Below are positions 23,488-35,591 of a DNA stretch of 36,308 nucleotides, piece after piece. Under the pieces are notes generated by a model. The model ran no database searches and was not told where the DNA came from. It saw only the letters and a program-made list of their open reading frames with translations. The position numbers and the translations under genes were made by a program. The DNA comes from Planctomycetota bacterium (lineage in GTDB: Bacteria > Planctomycetota > MHYJ01 > JACQRL01 > SBBU01), in contig JACQRL010000385.1 in NCBI GenBank assembly GCA_016206485.1, positions 1 to 36,308 on the forward strand, read 5' to 3'. Within the stretch, counting starts at the first letter, position 1. Every line of letters starts with the position of its first letter.

Positions 23488-24228
23488 TTAAAGAAGTGAC
23501 AATAAATATTTCAATTCATCCTCGACTTCGGATTCCTCAAGAACATATTCCAAGATCCCTTTTCTGATGATTTTTCTTACGAGTCTGCGCGCATATACAA
23601 GATAGTTCCTGACATCTGAATCTTTTATACCAAGCTCCCTGGCAAGAACCACGTATGAAGGCTGGTCAGGGCCTGAAGAATCAAGATCATATCTTTCAAA
23701 CACTGAAAAATAAACTTCTTTGCCTTCTTCAATAAGTTTATTTCTGAGTATTCCTATCGATCTTGTTAAAATTGTCCTTGCCCATTCCCTGTCAAAAGAT
23801 TCGAGCGGATCAAGAAACTCTTTTTTATCGCCATGCTCACTGCCTACTTCTTCAAAACTTACAGTCTTCGTTCCGCCTCCATGTTTTTTAGTCTGCAGCT
23901 TTCTCTTTTTATCGATAAGGAAATGTTTGAGCGAAACCTTTAAAAATGTCCTGAATCTTCCTTTCTCAGGAGAGGCGGGCTGAAGATAATTTTTCTCTAC
24001 AAAAAACTGCGCGAAAAACTCCTGAGTGAGATCTTTTGCATCCTCATTTGACATCCTCCAAACGTTACGTATATAGCTGTAAACAGGCTTCCAATATGCC
24101 GAAATAAGATACTCCAGCTTCTCTTTGTAATTGCTGCTGGTTCTGTCCTTTGCATTTAAGACGACGTTCCACGTAGTTAGAGGAAAATGGTGCTCGTCAC
24201 CTCCCATCGAAGTATTGCGCCCTGACAT
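23488..24228 (-). CDS. ECF-like RNA polymerase sigma factor
   Basis: KDLTQEFFAQFFVEKNYLQPASPEKGRFRTFLKVSLKHFLIDKKRK region 2; long SSYVVLARELGI-type region 4; resembles planctomycete/myxobacterial ECF sigmas. Confidence 0.85.
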   Translation of the reverse strand: MSGRNTSMGGDEHHFPLTTWNVVLNAKDRTSSNYKEKLEYLISAYWKPVYSYIRNVWRMSNEDAKDLTQEFFAQFFVEKNYLQPASPEKGRFRTFLKVSLKHFLIDKKRKLQTKKHGGGTKTVSFEEVGSEHGDKKEFLDPLESFDREWARTILTRSIGILRNKLIEEGKEVYFSVFERYDLDSSGPDQPSYVVLARELGIKDSDVRNYLVYARRLVRKIIRKGILEYVLEESEVEDELKYLLSLL

Positions 24229-26647: not shown

Positions 26648-27865
26648 ATGCAAAATAGATACGCGCTATTGGTCGTGCTCTTTGCGCTCTTTATTGCGCT
26701 GTTTTTTCTACCCAAACAACAGACAAAACCCGTTCAAATATCAGATAACAATGAAAATGCGCTTACAACGTCGGTTAAAGCCCCCGGCTCGGCTTTCAGT
26801 AACAGTCAAACCAAAAACGAAGAAGGCTCCGGCCAAGATGCGCAAACCGCGTTGAAATCTGAACAAGAAATCGAAAGGTCAGTAATAATAACAGGTTCTG
26901 TACTGAAACCTGACGCGACTCCAGTTGAGGGCGCACGCGTGCGAATATCTATCTGCGAACCTGCAGCAGAAGGAAAACAATCCGTAAAGTATGGCGACAG
27001 TTTTCTGAAGGAAACAGCTATCACTGGGTCTTACCCAAGCACAAATAAACAGGGAAACTTCAACACGTCATTCCAATACAGATCAAAGGAATCATCAAAA
27101 CACATTCTTCTGGCTGAAGTATGGTCGCCCTTCACAAATTATAACAAGAGCCTTCAACCGTACGATCGGGAAAAACATCTTGAACTTCTGTACAGCGATC
27201 TGTGTTATGTGAAACCTCAAACATTTATTATAGCGGAAAAAAACAATACTATAAATATCATTTTGTGGTGCCTGCCGACAGCAAAACTCACTGTTCAGAT
27301 TATTCCAGAAAGCACTGAAGCATATTTAAGATTAGAAATTCCGGGCATTCCTGATTCCAGATATTCACGTGAAGACTTCGCAACATTTGAAGGAAAAGCG
27401 ATCTTTGAAGTTCCTGCAGATACTGAATTCAATTTAACCTGCAGAAGCTGCAATTATCCTGATATAAAACACGACATCGAGCCGCTGCAGACCTTATCAG
27501 CTAAATATCTCCGTTTAGAATTCAGCAAGGGACATATCAGATACAGCGGAAATTTCGTAGATGAGAATGGAATCCCAATAAAAGACGCGGGCGTAGAAAT
27601 AATACAAGATGGATTGTCTTCTTACAGAACACAGACTGACAGTAACGGAAGTTTTGTCGCTGAAGGTCTCCTCGACAAACCAATTCGACAAATCAGCTTC
27701 ACCTCTCCAATCAAAAACAATACAAACAATACAATTGAAAAACCTCCAACCTGCGTGTCTGGTACCACGAATTCAATTATTATTTTTAAAAACGTAGACA
27801 TTAATATTTCCAAAACATTCATCTTCGAACAATCCAAGTCCAATCAAGAATCAACAATTGACTGA
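26648..27865 (+). CDS. TM-anchored protein with low-complexity linker and carboxypeptidase-regulatory-like beta domain, copy 1
   Basis: N-terminal TM, DGN-rich linker, SVLKPDATPVEGARVRIS and RYSGNFVDENGIPIKDAGVEIIQDGLSSYRTQTDSNGSFVAEGL. Confidence 0.78.
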   Translation: MQNRYALLVVLFALFIALFFLPKQQTKPVQISDNNENALTTSVKAPGSAFSNSQTKNEEGSGQDAQTALKSEQEIERSVIITGSVLKPDATPVEGARVRISICEPAAEGKQSVKYGDSFLKETAITGSYPSTNKQGNFNTSFQYRSKESSKHILLAEVWSPFTNYNKSLQPYDREKHLELLYSDLCYVKPQTFIIAEKNNTINIILWCLPTAKLTVQIIPESTEAYLRLEIPGIPDSRYSREDFATFEGKAIFEVPADTEFNLTCRSCNYPDIKHDIEPLQTLSAKYLRLEFSKGHIRYSGNFVDENGIPIKDAGVEIIQDGLSSYRTQTDSNGSFVAEGLLDKPIRQISFTSPIKNNTNNTIEKPPTCVSGTTNSIIIFKNVDINISKTFIFEQSKSNQESTID

Positions 27866-27935: not shown

Positions 27936-29159
27936 ATGCCTTTGCCCAGATTAAGGAACATAGATGCATATCCGGTAGACATTGAAGGCAAACGATATGT
28001 TTGTCTGAAAGATCCTGAAAACATTATAGACAACCTTCTTATATTAACTCCGCACGCATTTATGATTGCAACCATGCTCGATGGTAAAAAAGACATACAT
28101 GCCCTTCAGGAATCGTGCGTAAAAATGTTCAAGGGAGCAATGATAGTATCTGATGACATCAAACAACTTGTCAATCAGCTTGATAAAAACGGCTTTCTGC
28201 TTTCAGAGAATTTTGACAGGATAAAATCAAAAATAGAGAATCAGTTTTTGAGTTCGCTGGAACGTCCCGCTTATCTTTCAGGAAAATCCTATCCTGAGTC
28301 GCCCGGAGAACTTTCCAAACTGCTTATCAACTATATAAATGGAGCTTCCAGGAAAACGAAGAAAATCAGCCATGAAAAAATAAAAGGGATTATATCTCCT
28401 CATATTGACTACAACAGAGGCGGCGACTGTTACGGATATGCGTACAACGTGCTGGAAAAAATCGGGCAGGATTATGACACATTTGTAATTCTGGGAGTCG
28501 CGCACTCATCACCTCCTTCACCATATGTATTAACAAGAAAATCATTTGTAACTCCTCTGGGGACAGTACAGACAGACCAGGAAGTTGTTGACTACATAGC
28601 GCAAAGGATTTCATTCGACCCGTTCAAATATGAAATAGTGCACAGAGCTGAACATTCCATAGAATTTCAAGCGATTTTTCTAAAGCACGCCATTAAACAC
28701 GATTTTAAAATAGTTCCGATTCTCTGTTCATCTTTTGAGTCACTTGGTGAAGATGATCCTTGCCACAATAAAAACATTGAGAACTTCATTAAAATACTGA
28801 AAGAAACACTGAAAAAATTCACAAAGAAGAAATTTTTTATTATTTCAGGATCAGATCTTGCGCATGTTGGACCACGATTTGGAGACAACGAGCCTGTAAA
28901 CGACAAAATGATTTCTTGGATGGAAAAAGATGACCAGAGCAGTCTTAAATTCATAAAAAAAGCTGATCCTCTGGGCTTTTACAAATCTGTAATGCATGAC
29001 GGCAACAAGCGCAAAGTCTGCGGACTTTCATCAATATATACAACCCTTAAACTATTAGAGGGAAGCAAGGGAACCATACTTAACTATAACTATGCATCAG
29101 ATCCTGCGGGAGGCATGGTAAGTTATACAAGTGCGGTTTTGAGCCGCCAAAAAGCTTGA
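27936..29159 (+). CDS. amrB: AmmeMemoRadiSam system protein B (MEMO1 family) with N-terminal PqqD-like domain
   Basis: KGIISPHIDYNRGGDCYGYAYNVL, VILGVAHSSPPSPYVLTRKSFVTPLGTVQTD, HRAEHSIEFQAIFLKHA, ISGSDLAHVGPRFGD, GLSSIYTTLKLL; N-terminal TPHAFMIATMLDGKKDIHALQESCVKMF... resembles PqqD winged helix. Confidence 0.92.
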   Translation: MPLPRLRNIDAYPVDIEGKRYVCLKDPENIIDNLLILTPHAFMIATMLDGKKDIHALQESCVKMFKGAMIVSDDIKQLVNQLDKNGFLLSENFDRIKSKIENQFLSSLERPAYLSGKSYPESPGELSKLLINYINGASRKTKKISHEKIKGIISPHIDYNRGGDCYGYAYNVLEKIGQDYDTFVILGVAHSSPPSPYVLTRKSFVTPLGTVQTDQEVVDYIAQRISFDPFKYEIVHRAEHSIEFQAIFLKHAIKHDFKIVPILCSSFESLGEDDPCHNKNIENFIKILKETLKKFTKKKFFIISGSDLAHVGPRFGDNEPVNDKMISWMEKDDQSSLKFIKKADPLGFYKSVMHDGNKRKVCGLSSIYTTLKLLEGSKGTILNYNYASDPAGGMVSYTSAVLSRQKA

Positions 29160-30322: not shown

Positions 30323-31564
30323 ATGAAAAAATATTTGTTTGTGGGAATAGCCGTCCTAATAATAGCCGCCATTTTTATACTACAATCTCAGGGTATCAGG
30401 CATCAAACCAACAATCCCCCAGACAATAATAATACCAATCCGGATGCAGCTGCTACATCTTCAAATCTGACAAAAACCAAAGAAAATCAGGAAGCGCCGG
30501 CAGAGCAGATCAGCAAGCAGGCAGTCACCAAAACTGAAACTGCGCAAAAACATGAAGAGATTGAGAGGGTTGTAAAAATACATGGAACAGTTAAAGATCA
30601 CATCGGGAAATCAGTGAGGGGAGCATTCGTTGCTGTTGATATCGTCCCGGATAACACTGGTGAAAAATATATTCAGGATTCCGATAATCATCACCAAAAC
30701 TTTATAGCCTACAAGGGATATACCTCAGGTGTATATACAAACAAAAAAGGAAAGTTTTCCATAGAGATAAAATATAAAACAAAACAGCATGATATTCTCT
30801 ACATAGGAGTTGTTCCTGATTTTAGCTCAAAGCAGCTGGCGCTGCTTGAAAACATCTCTAACGTGCCGAAAAATAAAAGATATTCAAAAAATGAGCCGAC
30901 AGAGCTGTGTTATTCCGCGCCGCAAAAATTTATTCTCGCAAATGAACAGGAAATAATAGAAAGCGAAATAATCTTTAACTGCGCAGAAACCGCAACGATA
31001 ACTTTGGATGGCATAAACAAAGACACATTCCCTGAAATATTAATGAAGTTTTCTGACGCAAACTGGGCAATCGATGTTCAGCTTTCACCAAATCTGCTCA
31101 CCCAGAAATGGGTTTTAGACGTACCTTCAAATACATCTTTTGATCTCCTTATCTCTCTGGAAGGGTATCTTGATACCCGACATAGTTTCAATCAGCTAAA
31201 ACCGGGTGAGAATATCGTACTTGAACTGAATTTTGAAAAGGGTACAGAGGAACTGACAGGCGTATGCCTTGATGAAAACGGAGTCAATGTTATGCCGGGA
31301 GTGTATGTAAGTGCGATTCAAGATGGGCTTTCAGCAGGGGTAAGCACGGTAACAGACCAATCAGGACGTTTCACATTAAAAGGACTTTTAAAGAAAAAAA
31401 TCAGGAGATTAATATTTAATGATCAGCGACACGGTTACAGGATCATTGAATTGAAAGATATCGACATCCACTCGCCAATCGAAATCAAACTGCCAAAGAT
31501 GACAGAAAGCGAGAGAAATAAATTTAATTCCAAAGGCGAAGGAAAAAAAAGAGGAAGCGAATAA
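30323..31564 (+). CDS. TM-anchored protein with low-complexity linker and carboxypeptidase-regulatory-like beta domain, copy 2
   Basis: Aligns with copy 1: ELTGVCLDENGVNVMPGVYVSAIQDGLSAGVSTVTDQSGRFTLKGLLKKKIRRLIF; ELCYSAPQKFILANEQE vs DLCYVKPQTFIIAEKNN. Confidence 0.8.
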   Translation: MKKYLFVGIAVLIIAAIFILQSQGIRHQTNNPPDNNNTNPDAAATSSNLTKTKENQEAPAEQISKQAVTKTETAQKHEEIERVVKIHGTVKDHIGKSVRGAFVAVDIVPDNTGEKYIQDSDNHHQNFIAYKGYTSGVYTNKKGKFSIEIKYKTKQHDILYIGVVPDFSSKQLALLENISNVPKNKRYSKNEPTELCYSAPQKFILANEQEIIESEIIFNCAETATITLDGINKDTFPEILMKFSDANWAIDVQLSPNLLTQKWVLDVPSNTSFDLLISLEGYLDTRHSFNQLKPGENIVLELNFEKGTEELTGVCLDENGVNVMPGVYVSAIQDGLSAGVSTVTDQSGRFTLKGLLKKKIRRLIFNDQRHGYRIIELKDIDIHSPIEIKLPKMTESERNKFNSKGEGKKRGSE

Positions 31565-31616: not shown

Positions 31617-34151
31617 CTACACCTTAGAGCTCTCCAAAAATTCCATTGTCTTTCTTAGTCTTCTGCTCAGCATCGAAGCAAGTTCGATGACCAGATCAGG
31701 ATCCTCTTTTGCAAGTCTCCTAAAGTCATCTCCATTAAGACTCAGGCATTTTGTGTCCTCCAAGGCCCGTACAGTCGCTGATCTTACCTGCCTGTCGAGT
31801 ATCGACATCTCCCCAAACGCCTTGCCCTGATCAAGCTCTGTAACCTGCAGTACAATCCCATCATCTTTTTTTGTTTCAACCCCTACCTTACCGGATATTA
31901 TCAAAAACAGGGTGTCACCAATTTCTCCCTGTGAAACTACAACTTCCCCTTTAGAATAATTCCTGACAATGAGGGATTCAGCAAGAGTGAACAGCTTCTC
32001 AATAGATATTTCCCTGAAAACATCAGTTGATTTAAGAAAAACTATTTTCTCCGCACTTGTAAAAGAATGCGGTTTCGGCAGAGTCTTATTATCACTCATA
32101 ACAACCTCCTTAACAACCTTGGTGACATCAACTTTTGCTCTCTGTAGAATCTGCTCTCTTGTATTATCTGAAAGCTGAAGCCATTTTCTAAACACAGAGA
32201 GAGCAATTATCGATCTAAGCAATTTATTGCTTGAATCATATATATTCAGAACAGCCCGATTTTGATCATCTATTGATATATCCTTTTTGTCAGCAAAAAA
32301 GGTCTCTTTAAGCTCCGGTGAAAGATTTATCTTGAAGATTTTTATAGTGTATTCCCTTAGTTTTGGTTCGTTATGATACAAAAAAGGGACAAGAGACAGC
32401 AGGTCGGCTTTATTGTTCACGTATAACCAATGAGTCAAGGTGATGCTCGTCCACGCCGAGATCTCATCATCCAGCACATCAATTAAAGTCCTTGAAAAAT
32501 CAGAACTGCCATTTTTTGCCAATGTTCTAAATTGTTTGAGACTTATTATGTGCTCGTTTCCCCATTTTATAAATTCATCTGACATCGTTCCGGTTCGACT
32601 TCCGGAACTGAAATGAACACGTAATATTTCCTGATAATCAGAGGTTGAAAAATCTATTTTCTGAAGAAGGTCAACCGGTCTTGAAGCAAATGGAGACAGC
32701 TTCTGAAGTGCTGTCAGCCTGACTTTCTCATCGGAATCAGAAAGATATTTATCAAGTTCAGATGGATCCGATATTGTCAGATACTTCAACGCATGACTTC
32801 TTATTTCCGGATCAGCATCTGTTAGACCATCTCGTATATGGAATGTGCGCTCTTCAGCAGTAGGGTTATATCCATCCATAACATACCATGCTCCTTTGCG
32901 AATTACATTATCTGTTGAGCGAGTAAGCTCAATAACTCTTGATCGGAAACTTTGTATCGGATTTACCCTGAGAACATCAAGTGCAAGTATCAAATTATCA
33001 TTATCAGAAATATATGAGTTCAAAAGACTGCTTACAAAAAGAGGATCTACTGAATACAAGGCAAGAAGCAGCTCAACCCTGAGTGAATTTGAAATATCTT
33101 GTTTAAGTGAGTCTCTGCAGTACTGCTCTACACGTTCACCCGGAATAAGCGCCAGAATTGCCCTGAAAAGCAGCGGTTGTGTGTTATCCGGAAGCAAATG
33201 AAGTTCCTGAAGGATTTCAAGCGCAAAGTTTTTATCCAGTTCGTTGATCAAAAGTTTCGCGGCAGATTCAGCATGTTTTGAGTCAAAAGATTTAATAGAT
33301 CTCAGCAGGATCAGTTTTGATTCATCTCTGCATCTCTTTTCATAGTCATTATTCAGTATATACTTATTAACAGTCTCCCCAAGATCACTGTTTTCCGACT
33401 TTTCAAGGTCAGCCAGAAACCACGCCCAATGGAAATAACCGTATTCTATAAAACTTGCCATATAATTAGAATTGAAGTATCCGGCTACGCTTTTCTGCTT
33501 ACCCAAGATCTCATTGAGCTGGGATTGAGTAGCAATTTTTCTTGCGATTACCACATCCTGCAATGGCATTTTTGAAGTTTTGCTGAAGGTGATCGCCTCC
33601 TGTAGTTCATTTTCGCCAATCACGCCTGCATGCAGAAGAAGCTCACCAAGGTCGTGATAGCTGGAACCCACATCAATCTTTCTTTCACCAAGTTCTTTGA
33701 GTTTGGCAACTGCTCTTTGCAAAAAATCTTTTAGGAATGGCGAATGATCTGCATACATATCATGGGTGTAAGCAGATGCGACGGCATTGGCTACGTGTTC
33801 CTCCATCCAGTCATTATTTGTGGCAGTTTTATAGAAATCCCTCAGATGGTGGGCGATTTCATGCGAGACTATACGAGATATCGCTAATCGTCCGAACTTA
33901 GCAAGTTCATCAACCGAAGCCGCTCCATGTATGTCAGATAAATAGTACCACTGCAGCTTTCCCTGAATGGTATCAAGATCAGGTATGGAAAACGATATCA
34001 GCTTGCGATGTACATCGTAATAACAGAAAAAGCAATCCTCATATATGATTTTAAGATCAGGTGAGATCCCGACATCATATTTGCTCAGGACCGACAGAAA
34101 TTCATCAAATGCATTATGACAAAGTTTTATTAGGTCCTGTTTTAACGACAT
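31617..34151 (-). CDS. Multidomain protein: zincin-like HExxH + MshEN-like + HEAT repeats + C-terminal cNMP-binding domain
   Basis: VSHEIAHHLRDFY...EEHVANAVASAY; LGELLLHAGVIGENELQEAI (MshEN-like); HEAT middle; GEVVVSQGEIGDTLFLIISGKVGVE...GKAFGEMSILDRQVRSATVRALED (CAP-ED). Confidence 0.88.
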   Translation of the reverse strand: MSLKQDLIKLCHNAFDEFLSVLSKYDVGISPDLKIIYEDCFFCYYDVHRKLISFSIPDLDTIQGKLQWYYLSDIHGAASVDELAKFGRLAISRIVSHEIAHHLRDFYKTATNNDWMEEHVANAVASAYTHDMYADHSPFLKDFLQRAVAKLKELGERKIDVGSSYHDLGELLLHAGVIGENELQEAITFSKTSKMPLQDVVIARKIATQSQLNEILGKQKSVAGYFNSNYMASFIEYGYFHWAWFLADLEKSENSDLGETVNKYILNNDYEKRCRDESKLILLRSIKSFDSKHAESAAKLLINELDKNFALEILQELHLLPDNTQPLLFRAILALIPGERVEQYCRDSLKQDISNSLRVELLLALYSVDPLFVSSLLNSYISDNDNLILALDVLRVNPIQSFRSRVIELTRSTDNVIRKGAWYVMDGYNPTAEERTFHIRDGLTDADPEIRSHALKYLTISDPSELDKYLSDSDEKVRLTALQKLSPFASRPVDLLQKIDFSTSDYQEILRVHFSSGSRTGTMSDEFIKWGNEHIISLKQFRTLAKNGSSDFSRTLIDVLDDEISAWTSITLTHWLYVNNKADLLSLVPFLYHNEPKLREYTIKIFKINLSPELKETFFADKKDISIDDQNRAVLNIYDSSNKLLRSIIALSVFRKWLQLSDNTREQILQRAKVDVTKVVKEVVMSDNKTLPKPHSFTSAEKIVFLKSTDVFREISIEKLFTLAESLIVRNYSKGEVVVSQGEIGDTLFLIISGKVGVETKKDDGIVLQVTELDQGKAFGEMSILDRQVRSATVRALEDTKCLSLNGDDFRRLAKEDPDLVIELASMLSRRLRKTMEFLESSKV

Positions 34152-34174
34152 CCATCAAGAAAATAAAGTGTAAA

Positions 34175-34411
34175 TTAACCGCCGCCTTTTTTCCCTGAAA
34201 GCGCGCCGGTAAGTTCTTTGTTGAGCTGATCAGAAGGTAAATCCTTGACCTTATTGTGGAATTCTTTTATTGCATCAAGCTCTTCCTGAACCAGCTTGTC
34301 AAGAAATCCATACTTTGAAAGAGTTCCATCAAGATCCTTTACAGCCTCTTTCGCAAACTTCTTGTCATTAACCGCCTTTTTCACCAACTCCATTAATACT
34401 TCATCTGACAT
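34175..34411 (-). CDS. 78-aa leader-like/RiPP-precursor-like peptide ending GKKGGG
   Basis: SD GGGAGG 5 nt before ATG; VKKAVNDKKFAKEAVKDLDGTLSKYGFLDKLVQEELDAI resembles Nif11/Franean1_4349-type leaders; 23-bp gap to the next gene. Confidence 0.75.
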   Translation of the reverse strand: MSDEVLMELVKKAVNDKKFAKEAVKDLDGTLSKYGFLDKLVQEELDAIKEFHNKVKDLPSDQLNKELTGALSGKKGGG

Positions 34412-34516
34412 AAATACCTCCCAAACTAATATTAAATTAAATCAACTCAAATCAACACAGATTCATATGATAAAAAGTAACCATTAAAAAGATAACAAAA
34501 GATTGACTGACCAGGT

Positions 34517-35479
34517 TTAGAGCGAAGCCCTGTTTAAGATATCCAAAAATAGTCTGGACTTTTTCATCCCTACCGCGCGCTTTAAAAAATTGCATGCTTT
34601 TCTCTTATATACAGAGGTCATTAATGCAACGTACATTAATGCCCCGCTGTCTTTTATTATATTCCTGATTTTTTTATGGGTATATCCGCGTGAGTCTGCG
34701 CCAGCAGCAGTTTTCAACAGTTTCTTAAGAATTCCCTTTTTAGATGAAGTTTTAAGCGCAAAGGCGACCGGTAATGTCACCCTGCCATTCTTCAAATCTG
34801 AGCTTGTTTTTTTACACCAGATATCATTACAATCGCTCGAAACCTGCAACGAAATCCCAAGATATCTCCCAAAAAGCGAGAGATTCTCAATCTGACTATT
34901 ATTAGCCCCTGCAAGGATGGCAGCCGCTCTGCAAAAAAGTTCGATCTGTGATCCGCTCTTCATAGCCACAATATTTCCCACATGCTGAACTGAAACGGTT
35001 TCACCGGCACTTGCGGCAAGATCCATTGTCTGGCCCTGCAGCATTTTCAATAAGGTCTTGTCAAAATCGTTCTTCAACCTGGCGACAATCTTTTCCGGCA
35101 CTGAATAGTATTTCAACCGCTCCAATGCGCTATGGCTGACGAAATTAAGGAGCTCAAACGCCGAAAGTACAAGAATATCCGAATCAATTTTTCTTAGGCG
35201 TGCCGGAATATCCCGATCAGCTATATCATCCAGTATGTCGGCGCCGCAATGCAGAGCCGTACAGGCGGATAGAAATGGAACTAATTTGGAATCCGCTTTA
35301 CAAAAGCAGGAATAAATTCTGAGCGGGAGTTCGACTGAAGGGATAAAATTATAGCCTTTCAATTTTGAACGGGAGACTTCCGCGCAAATCCGGAGAAATC
35401 TGGAACAGGCAACAGTTTCACACTCCTCATGAATCAGTTCATATAATAATTGAAAAGCGCGATCAAAATATGATTTCAT
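34517..35479 (-). CDS. Divergent polyprenyl synthetase (class I isoprenyl diphosphate synthase) family protein
   Basis: ALHCGADILDDIADRD (first Asp-rich motif), GQTMDLA, KSGSQIELFCRAAAILAG, LGISLQVSSDCNDIW (degenerate second Asp-rich motif), DLKNGRVTLPVAFAL. Confidence 0.85.
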   Translation of the reverse strand: MKSYFDRAFQLLYELIHEECETVACSRFLRICAEVSRSKLKGYNFIPSVELPLRIYSCFCKADSKLVPFLSACTALHCGADILDDIADRDIPARLRKIDSDILVLSAFELLNFVSHSALERLKYYSVPEKIVARLKNDFDKTLLKMLQGQTMDLAASAGETVSVQHVGNIVAMKSGSQIELFCRAAAILAGANNSQIENLSLFGRYLGISLQVSSDCNDIWCKKTSSDLKNGRVTLPVAFALKTSSKKGILKKLLKTAAGADSRGYTHKKIRNIIKDSGALMYVALMTSVYKRKACNFLKRAVGMKKSRLFLDILNRASL

Positions 35480-35591
35480 CAAAATCGATTATTAATAATA
35501 AACAAGACCCGTCAATATGCAGAAATATAACAACATCCGGCCTGAACAAAAAAAGTGTAGACATTCAAACAAGTTTGCTGATTCATATCAT

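Follow-up and report, generated by a model that had tools for sequence, protein, structure and literature searches.

A ComQ-like prenyltransferase gene, a putative NHLP-clan small protein and an HExxH/cNMP protein in a planctomycetotal genome: a candidate locus of peptide modification

Does the three-gene unit of a planctomycetotal contig, in which a divergent isoprenyl synthase gene precedes the genes of a 78-aa peptide and of an 844-aa HExxH protein, belong to the loci where a ComQ-type enzyme modifies the neighbouring peptide? The contig is the whole stretch of DNA analysed here (the window, 36,308 bp). It comes from a draft genome of 3.4 Mb, 81% complete, whose nearest genomes share only the class with it; the source is an isolated lineage. 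The three ORFs of the earlier note were verified in position and strand, and the three-gene unit is real. On the minus strand the synthase is followed after 105 bp by the 78-aa ORF and the latter after 23 bp by the 844-aa ORF. The features are as follows.

34517–35482, minus strand: putative trans-IDS-like prenyltransferase of the ComQ-type clade, 321 aa (PF00348 71.9 bits, motif table, trees, leave-one-out HMM).
35216–35230, minus strand: FARM of this enzyme, DDIAD, residues 85–89.
34823–34837, minus strand: pseudo-SARM of this enzyme, SDCND.
34417–34422, minus strand: Shine-Dalgarno sequence GGGAGG, 5 nt before the ATG of the 78-aa protein (sequence).
34175–34411, minus strand: putative NHLP/Os1348-clan small protein, 78 aa (NF038399 E 3.6e-6, PF14407 E 0.009, own profile).
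34259–34396, minus strand: leader-like match within the 78-aa protein.
31617–34151, minus strand: multidomain protein, 844 aa, with HExxH zincin-like N-domain, MshEN-like part, HEAT-like helices and cNMP-binding domain (profiles and sequence).
33849–33863, minus strand: HEIAH (HExxH), residues 97–101 (sequence).
33495–33650, minus strand: degenerate MshEN-like motif (NF053729 35.7 bits against a cut-off of 38; alignment to 5htl).
31704–31964, minus strand: cyclic-nucleotide-binding domain (PF00027 79.7 bits, cut-off 27.5).

The codon usage of all three ORFs is coding-like, and in frame only. The unit is the sole minus-strand gene set from position 24228 to the contig end and has plus-strand genes on either side. 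There is no terminator-like site between the three genes and no Rfam match, and the small ORFs flanking the unit provide no convincing candidate for a second precursor.

The PF00348 (polyprenyl_synt) match of the 321-aa enzyme lies above the Pfam cut-off of 27 bits. GGKRxRP and RR are the IPP-binding motifs of such synthases, and DDxxD holds the allylic diphosphate donor. The canonical isoprenyl diphosphate synthase has GGKRxRP, RR after FARM and DDxxD in SARM, while the window enzyme has neither a GGKRxRP-type motif nor the RR, and in its SARM the first Asp is replaced and the second is kept (SDCND versus DDxxD). When aligned with the PF00348 proteins detected in the genome and the phylum, it is the only one where GGKRxRP, RR and the first SARM Asp are all missing. 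DDIAD, GQ..D and the KSG Lys are retained, as are the Gln that precedes the second motif and the Asp within it. The FARM aspartates, GQ..D, K175, Q213 and D217 are common to this enzyme and the annotated ComQs, and the phmmer alignment with the synthase 1wy0 from the PDB places the same residues in register. In ComQ, FARM is conserved and the pseudo-SARM keeps the second Asp only, with Asn or Gly required at the first position, that is NDxxx or GDxxx (PMC5331326). The window enzyme has the intact DDxxD of the ComQ FARM, whereas its pseudo-SARM begins with Ser and thus departs from both forms.

In the maximum-likelihood tree the window enzyme and eight ComQ-like enzymes (9 rows) are separated from 16 canonical synthases, which include the genome's two other PF00348 copies, with a branch support of 100/99.7, and the same split appears under different tree sampling (98/97). 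In the leave-one-out HMM comparison the window synthase scores 176.6 bits with the ComQ-like profile, made of the eight enzymes without the window one, versus 90.8 bits with the canonical profile. The window synthase is fast-evolving and has a long branch, which calls for caution with the tree, but the motif losses common to the group agree with it. The remaining two PF00348 genes lie elsewhere in the genome, are canonical and have much stronger scores. Hence, the earlier claim of a divergent isoprenyl synthase, set against housekeeping ones, holds: motifs, tree and HMM put it with the ComQ-type enzymes and apart from the two other copies, and the foreseen opposite outcome, a single-copy gene grouping with the housekeeping synthases, did not come true. 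Judged by its sequence, the enzyme very probably belongs to the ComQ-like class, and its assignment to the trans-IDS-like prenyltransferases instead of the chain-elongating synthases is well supported.

Its closest relative found anywhere is a gene of a Priestia megaterium plasmid (E 3e-23 over 95%, tblastn of plasmids), and the best match in its own phylum reaches only E 4e-12. This Priestia gene (L120) stands by itself, with a terminator-like hairpin after it. The plasmid search also gave annotated ComQ–ComX loci of Lysinibacillus and Anoxybacillus, the Priestia pBM700 relative with the order 57-aa ORF, enzyme, kinase-type ATP-binding protein and response regulator, and further enzyme relatives on Streptomyces plasmids with Cys-ending ORFs alongside. 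Most relatives of the ComQ-like clade adjoin small peptide genes; near the Streptomyces relative L125 no obvious peptide was found. Among the 392 phylum genomes (391 besides the source genome) no other ComQ-like member was found.

Two observations concern these plasmid loci themselves. On three Streptomyces plasmids (L157:3332-4285, minus strand; L158:4577-4714, plus strand; L159:4577-4726, plus strand) ComQ-like genes lie beside short ORFs, 8/8 of which end in Cys; in S. clavuligerus six short ORFs are arrayed in tandem, their N-part conserved (mostly ESPLTLP) and their C-part variable, and DUF2332 and P450 genes come next in L157 and L158. The Cys-ending ORFs are candidates for C-terminal-Cys prenylated peptides; our search found no paper on such ORFs beside ComQ-like genes in Streptomyces. 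The record CP065518.1 (L123), a plasmid recorded as Stenotrophomonas rhizophila, has a comQ-comX-comP set with ComQ and ComX parts nearly identical to those of the Lysinibacillus plasmid L121, and the species label of this record may be wrong.

For the 78-aa protein, the strong Shine-Dalgarno sequence, the 23-bp spacing, the GGG end and the absence of Trp and Cys described in the earlier note are confirmed: it has zero Trp and zero Cys, and its C-terminus is KKGGG. Its match to NF038399 (Os1348 family, NHLP clan) amounts to 27 bits, under the cut-off of 40, and that to PF14407 is weak. With our own profile, built from the NHLP matches of the phylum, it scores 12.7 bits, a value reached by 0/5000 shuffles (best 9.4), which supports a distant NHLP homology. 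That it is a divergent leader-like protein of the NHLP/Os1348 clan is moderately supported by these profile matches. For its moderate-quality structural model no structural match was found, Os1348 (6LK7) included, and the 78-aa sequence has no significant match in the phylum sample or in plasmids. A RiPP precursor has a hypervariable core after GG, while this protein stops at GGG. The RiPP-like small peptide proposed earlier is thus retained in part: its sub-threshold match to a RiPP-leader clan stands, and the core is absent. A frameshift at the A6 run near the peptide end, hiding a core with Trp or Cys, was considered and rejected, as both shifted readings are without either residue (by eye).

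The NHLP clan occurs in 26/294 phylum genomes. Stand-alone NHLP-clan proteins of 64-77 aa lie there near housekeeping or apparent pilin/PilT-type genes (L110:7423-7614, L112:4578-4808, L113:1895-2104; neighbours named by eye), which suggests roles of the clan beyond RiPP precursors, so that clan membership alone is no proof of a RiPP. In three phylum genomes 3 to 5 NHLP-clan copies are found on one contig (G033:C95, G143:C125 and G161:C22; L107, L108 and L109).

In the 844-aa protein HEIAH is followed by WMEEHVAN, a gluzincin-like W-x-x-E with the second Glu at +17 from the second His; judged from the motif only, the WMEE Glu may be the third ligand. The gluzincin profiles PF13485 and TIGR04267 give no match to the protein with E up to 1, residues 1-225 alone give no Pfam match with E up to 0.01, and the fold model of the zincin domain (pLDDT 41) is too poor for use. 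The c-di-GMP-binding MshEN domain has the ligand residues RLG...Q; in the alignment to 5htl the conserved Arg is replaced by Asp and the Gln is missing, so that c-di-GMP binding is doubtful. The HEAT match is weak (20.1 bits versus a cut-off of 23.5). The cNMP domain has an intact phosphate-binding cassette, FGE...R-SA (by eye), and the whole-protein search gives matches to cNMP domains only. Profile searches found no kinase domain. Of the domains named in the earlier note, HExxH and the strong cNMP domain are therefore retained, while MshEN, below its cut-off and degenerate, and the weak HEAT are not secured.

The unit can be compared with several known systems. With ComQ-ComX(-ComP-ComA), the quorum sensing system of Bacillus, it has in common the enzyme clade, the kept FARM and second Asp of the pseudo-SARM, the lost IPP motifs, and the comQ-comX-comP order of enzyme, small peptide and large protein. 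However, unlike in ComQXPA, the first residue of the pseudo-SARM is Ser, the peptide belongs to the NHLP clan and has no Trp near the C-terminus, the third gene does not encode a histidine kinase, and there is no response regulator. In Paenibacillus alvei the precursor of a trans-IDS-like prenyltransferase, PalX, is of the NHLP type (PMC10853753). In PalQ-PalX(-PalP) such an enzyme stands beside this NHLP-type precursor, which is close in size to the window protein, about 80 aa as inferred from the T72/D73 cleavage site and the 8-aa core; the clan match of the window protein is significant but below the cut-off, and PalQ was compared by description. PalX ends in a Trp acceptor, whereas the window protein ends in KKGGG, and the third gene of PalPXQ is a histidine kinase, whereas that of the window has no kinase domain.

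The third parallel is Os1348 of Pseudomonas sp. Os17, the founder of a small-protein family, whose gene is followed by those of an acetyltransferase, the gluzincin-like Os1350 and a SagB-type protein; when Os1350 is deleted, the level of Os1348 rises (PMC7726476). As in this OS3 cluster, the window has a putative NHLP/Os1348-clan small protein and an HExxH gene, gluzincin-like by motif. It differs in having no acetyltransferase or SagB-type gene, in an HExxH domain without PF13485/TIGR04267 match, and in the sub-cut-off score with NF038399. The window unit thus combines elements of the PalQ-PalX and Os1348-Os1350 partnerships. The best NCBIfam match of the enzyme is NF041169 (Family 2 encapsulin cargo polyprenyl transferase), 76 bits versus a cut-off of 450. 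Such cargo goes with a cNMP-containing shell, and the window likewise has a cNMP domain nearby; however, no shell model matches the 844-aa protein outside this domain. We rejected the encapsulin cargo identity, the annotated ComQs giving the same weak NF041169 match (59-65 bits).

Conserved co-occurrence of the three genes, whose lack the earlier note had set as a test of its proposal, was not found: no second set turned up in 246-392 phylum genomes, 85,462 species genomes or plasmids. Neither the HExxH protein nor the synthase found a match in the scans of the species genomes; the viral collection gave none either, and the examined phylum NHLP loci have no ComQ-like or HExxH-protein neighbour. 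This negative is weak, since the source genome is an isolated lineage.

With reserve, we propose the unit as a candidate locus of the ComQ/PalQ kind, for the modification of a peptide or small protein. The three genes may act together on the small protein, a tentative reading drawn from gene order, clan membership and the two literature parallels, not from conservation. In this mechanism the enzyme would transfer a prenyl group, with GPP, FPP or GGPP from the genome's two canonical synthases as the donor and the NHLP-clan protein, or a peptide carried by it, as the acceptor. For the proteolysis and cyclic-nucleotide gating proposed earlier, we infer that the HExxH protein, a gluzincin by motif, would cut or mature the NHLP-clan protein and that the cNMP domain, rather than the degenerate MshEN one, would tune its action. 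The GGG end might result from cleavage, serve as a processing signal or be the trace of a lost core. All characterised trans-IDS-like prenyltransferases act on Trp (2026 review, PMC13290415), and this rule is the main difficulty for the Trp-free 78-aa protein as the acceptor itself. The fullest form of the proposal, in which the ComQ-type enzyme modifies a non-Trp residue in the NHLP-clan protein, outside the Trp-only rule, and a cyclic-nucleotide-gated HExxH protein matures this protein, is a long shot. The ComQ analogy is partly supported: the enzyme class and the gene order agree with it, while a conserved set and a Trp or Cys acceptor are absent. The locus is thus a candidate for a new form of trans-IDS-like peptide prenylation, its substrate and protease function being putative.

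An enzyme acting on a small molecule, as Ord1 does on free tryptophan, followed by a separate pair of NHLP-clan and HExxH/cNMP genes, is a serious alternative, although we consider it unlikely. The absence of Trp and Cys from the peptide and the stand-alone position of the closest Priestia relative agree with it, and the 105-bp gap could hold a transcription start of the peptide gene, which has its own strong Shine-Dalgarno sequence and the third gene 23 bp on. No terminator-like site, however, separates synthase and peptide, and most relatives of the clade adjoin small peptide genes. Alternatively, without any prenylation, the NHLP-clan protein could be a small structured regulator, or a protease substrate, of the HExxH/MshEN/HEAT/cNMP protein. 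The 23-bp spacing and gene order, the rise of Os1348 on deletion of the gluzincin-like Os1350 (PMC7726476) and the stand-alone clan proteins beside ordinary genes of the same phylum favour it; we regard it as quite unlikely, as it leaves unexplained the ComQ-type enzyme directly upstream, absent from the 391 other phylum-sample genomes.

A relic synthase, degenerate or inactive, in an arrangement without joint function has only a slim chance: its fast evolution, long branch and lost SARM Asp would fit, but the residues in common with the annotated ComQs are kept, the frame is intact and the coding bias is present. An ordinary housekeeping isoprenyl diphosphate synthase, for which the PF00348 score above the cut-off speaks, is hardly credible, because three conserved substrate motifs are lost, the tree and HMM exclude the enzyme from the canonical group and two canonical copies exist elsewhere.

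If modification of the small protein by the ComQ-type enzyme and its maturation by the HExxH protein are true, one locus joins two partnerships described separately, NHLP with prenyltransferase and NHLP-clan with HExxH protein. With a Trp-free NHLP-clan partner next to such an enzyme, the acceptance of other residues by this fold becomes directly testable.

The plus-strand neighbours deserve a remark of their own. The genes at 26648-27865 and 30323-31564 (both plus strand) code for paralogous proteins (26% identity, E 1e-24), each with a hydrophobic N-terminal stretch plus a CarboxypepD_reg domain, and the three-gene unit lies directly downstream of the second one on the opposite strand. Between the two, 27936-29159 (plus strand) encodes a Memo-family protein (AmmeMemoSam_B) whose N-terminal part includes a PqqD/RRE-like stretch (residues 36-88, TIGR03859 20 bits), possibly a peptide-binding domain fused to Memo.
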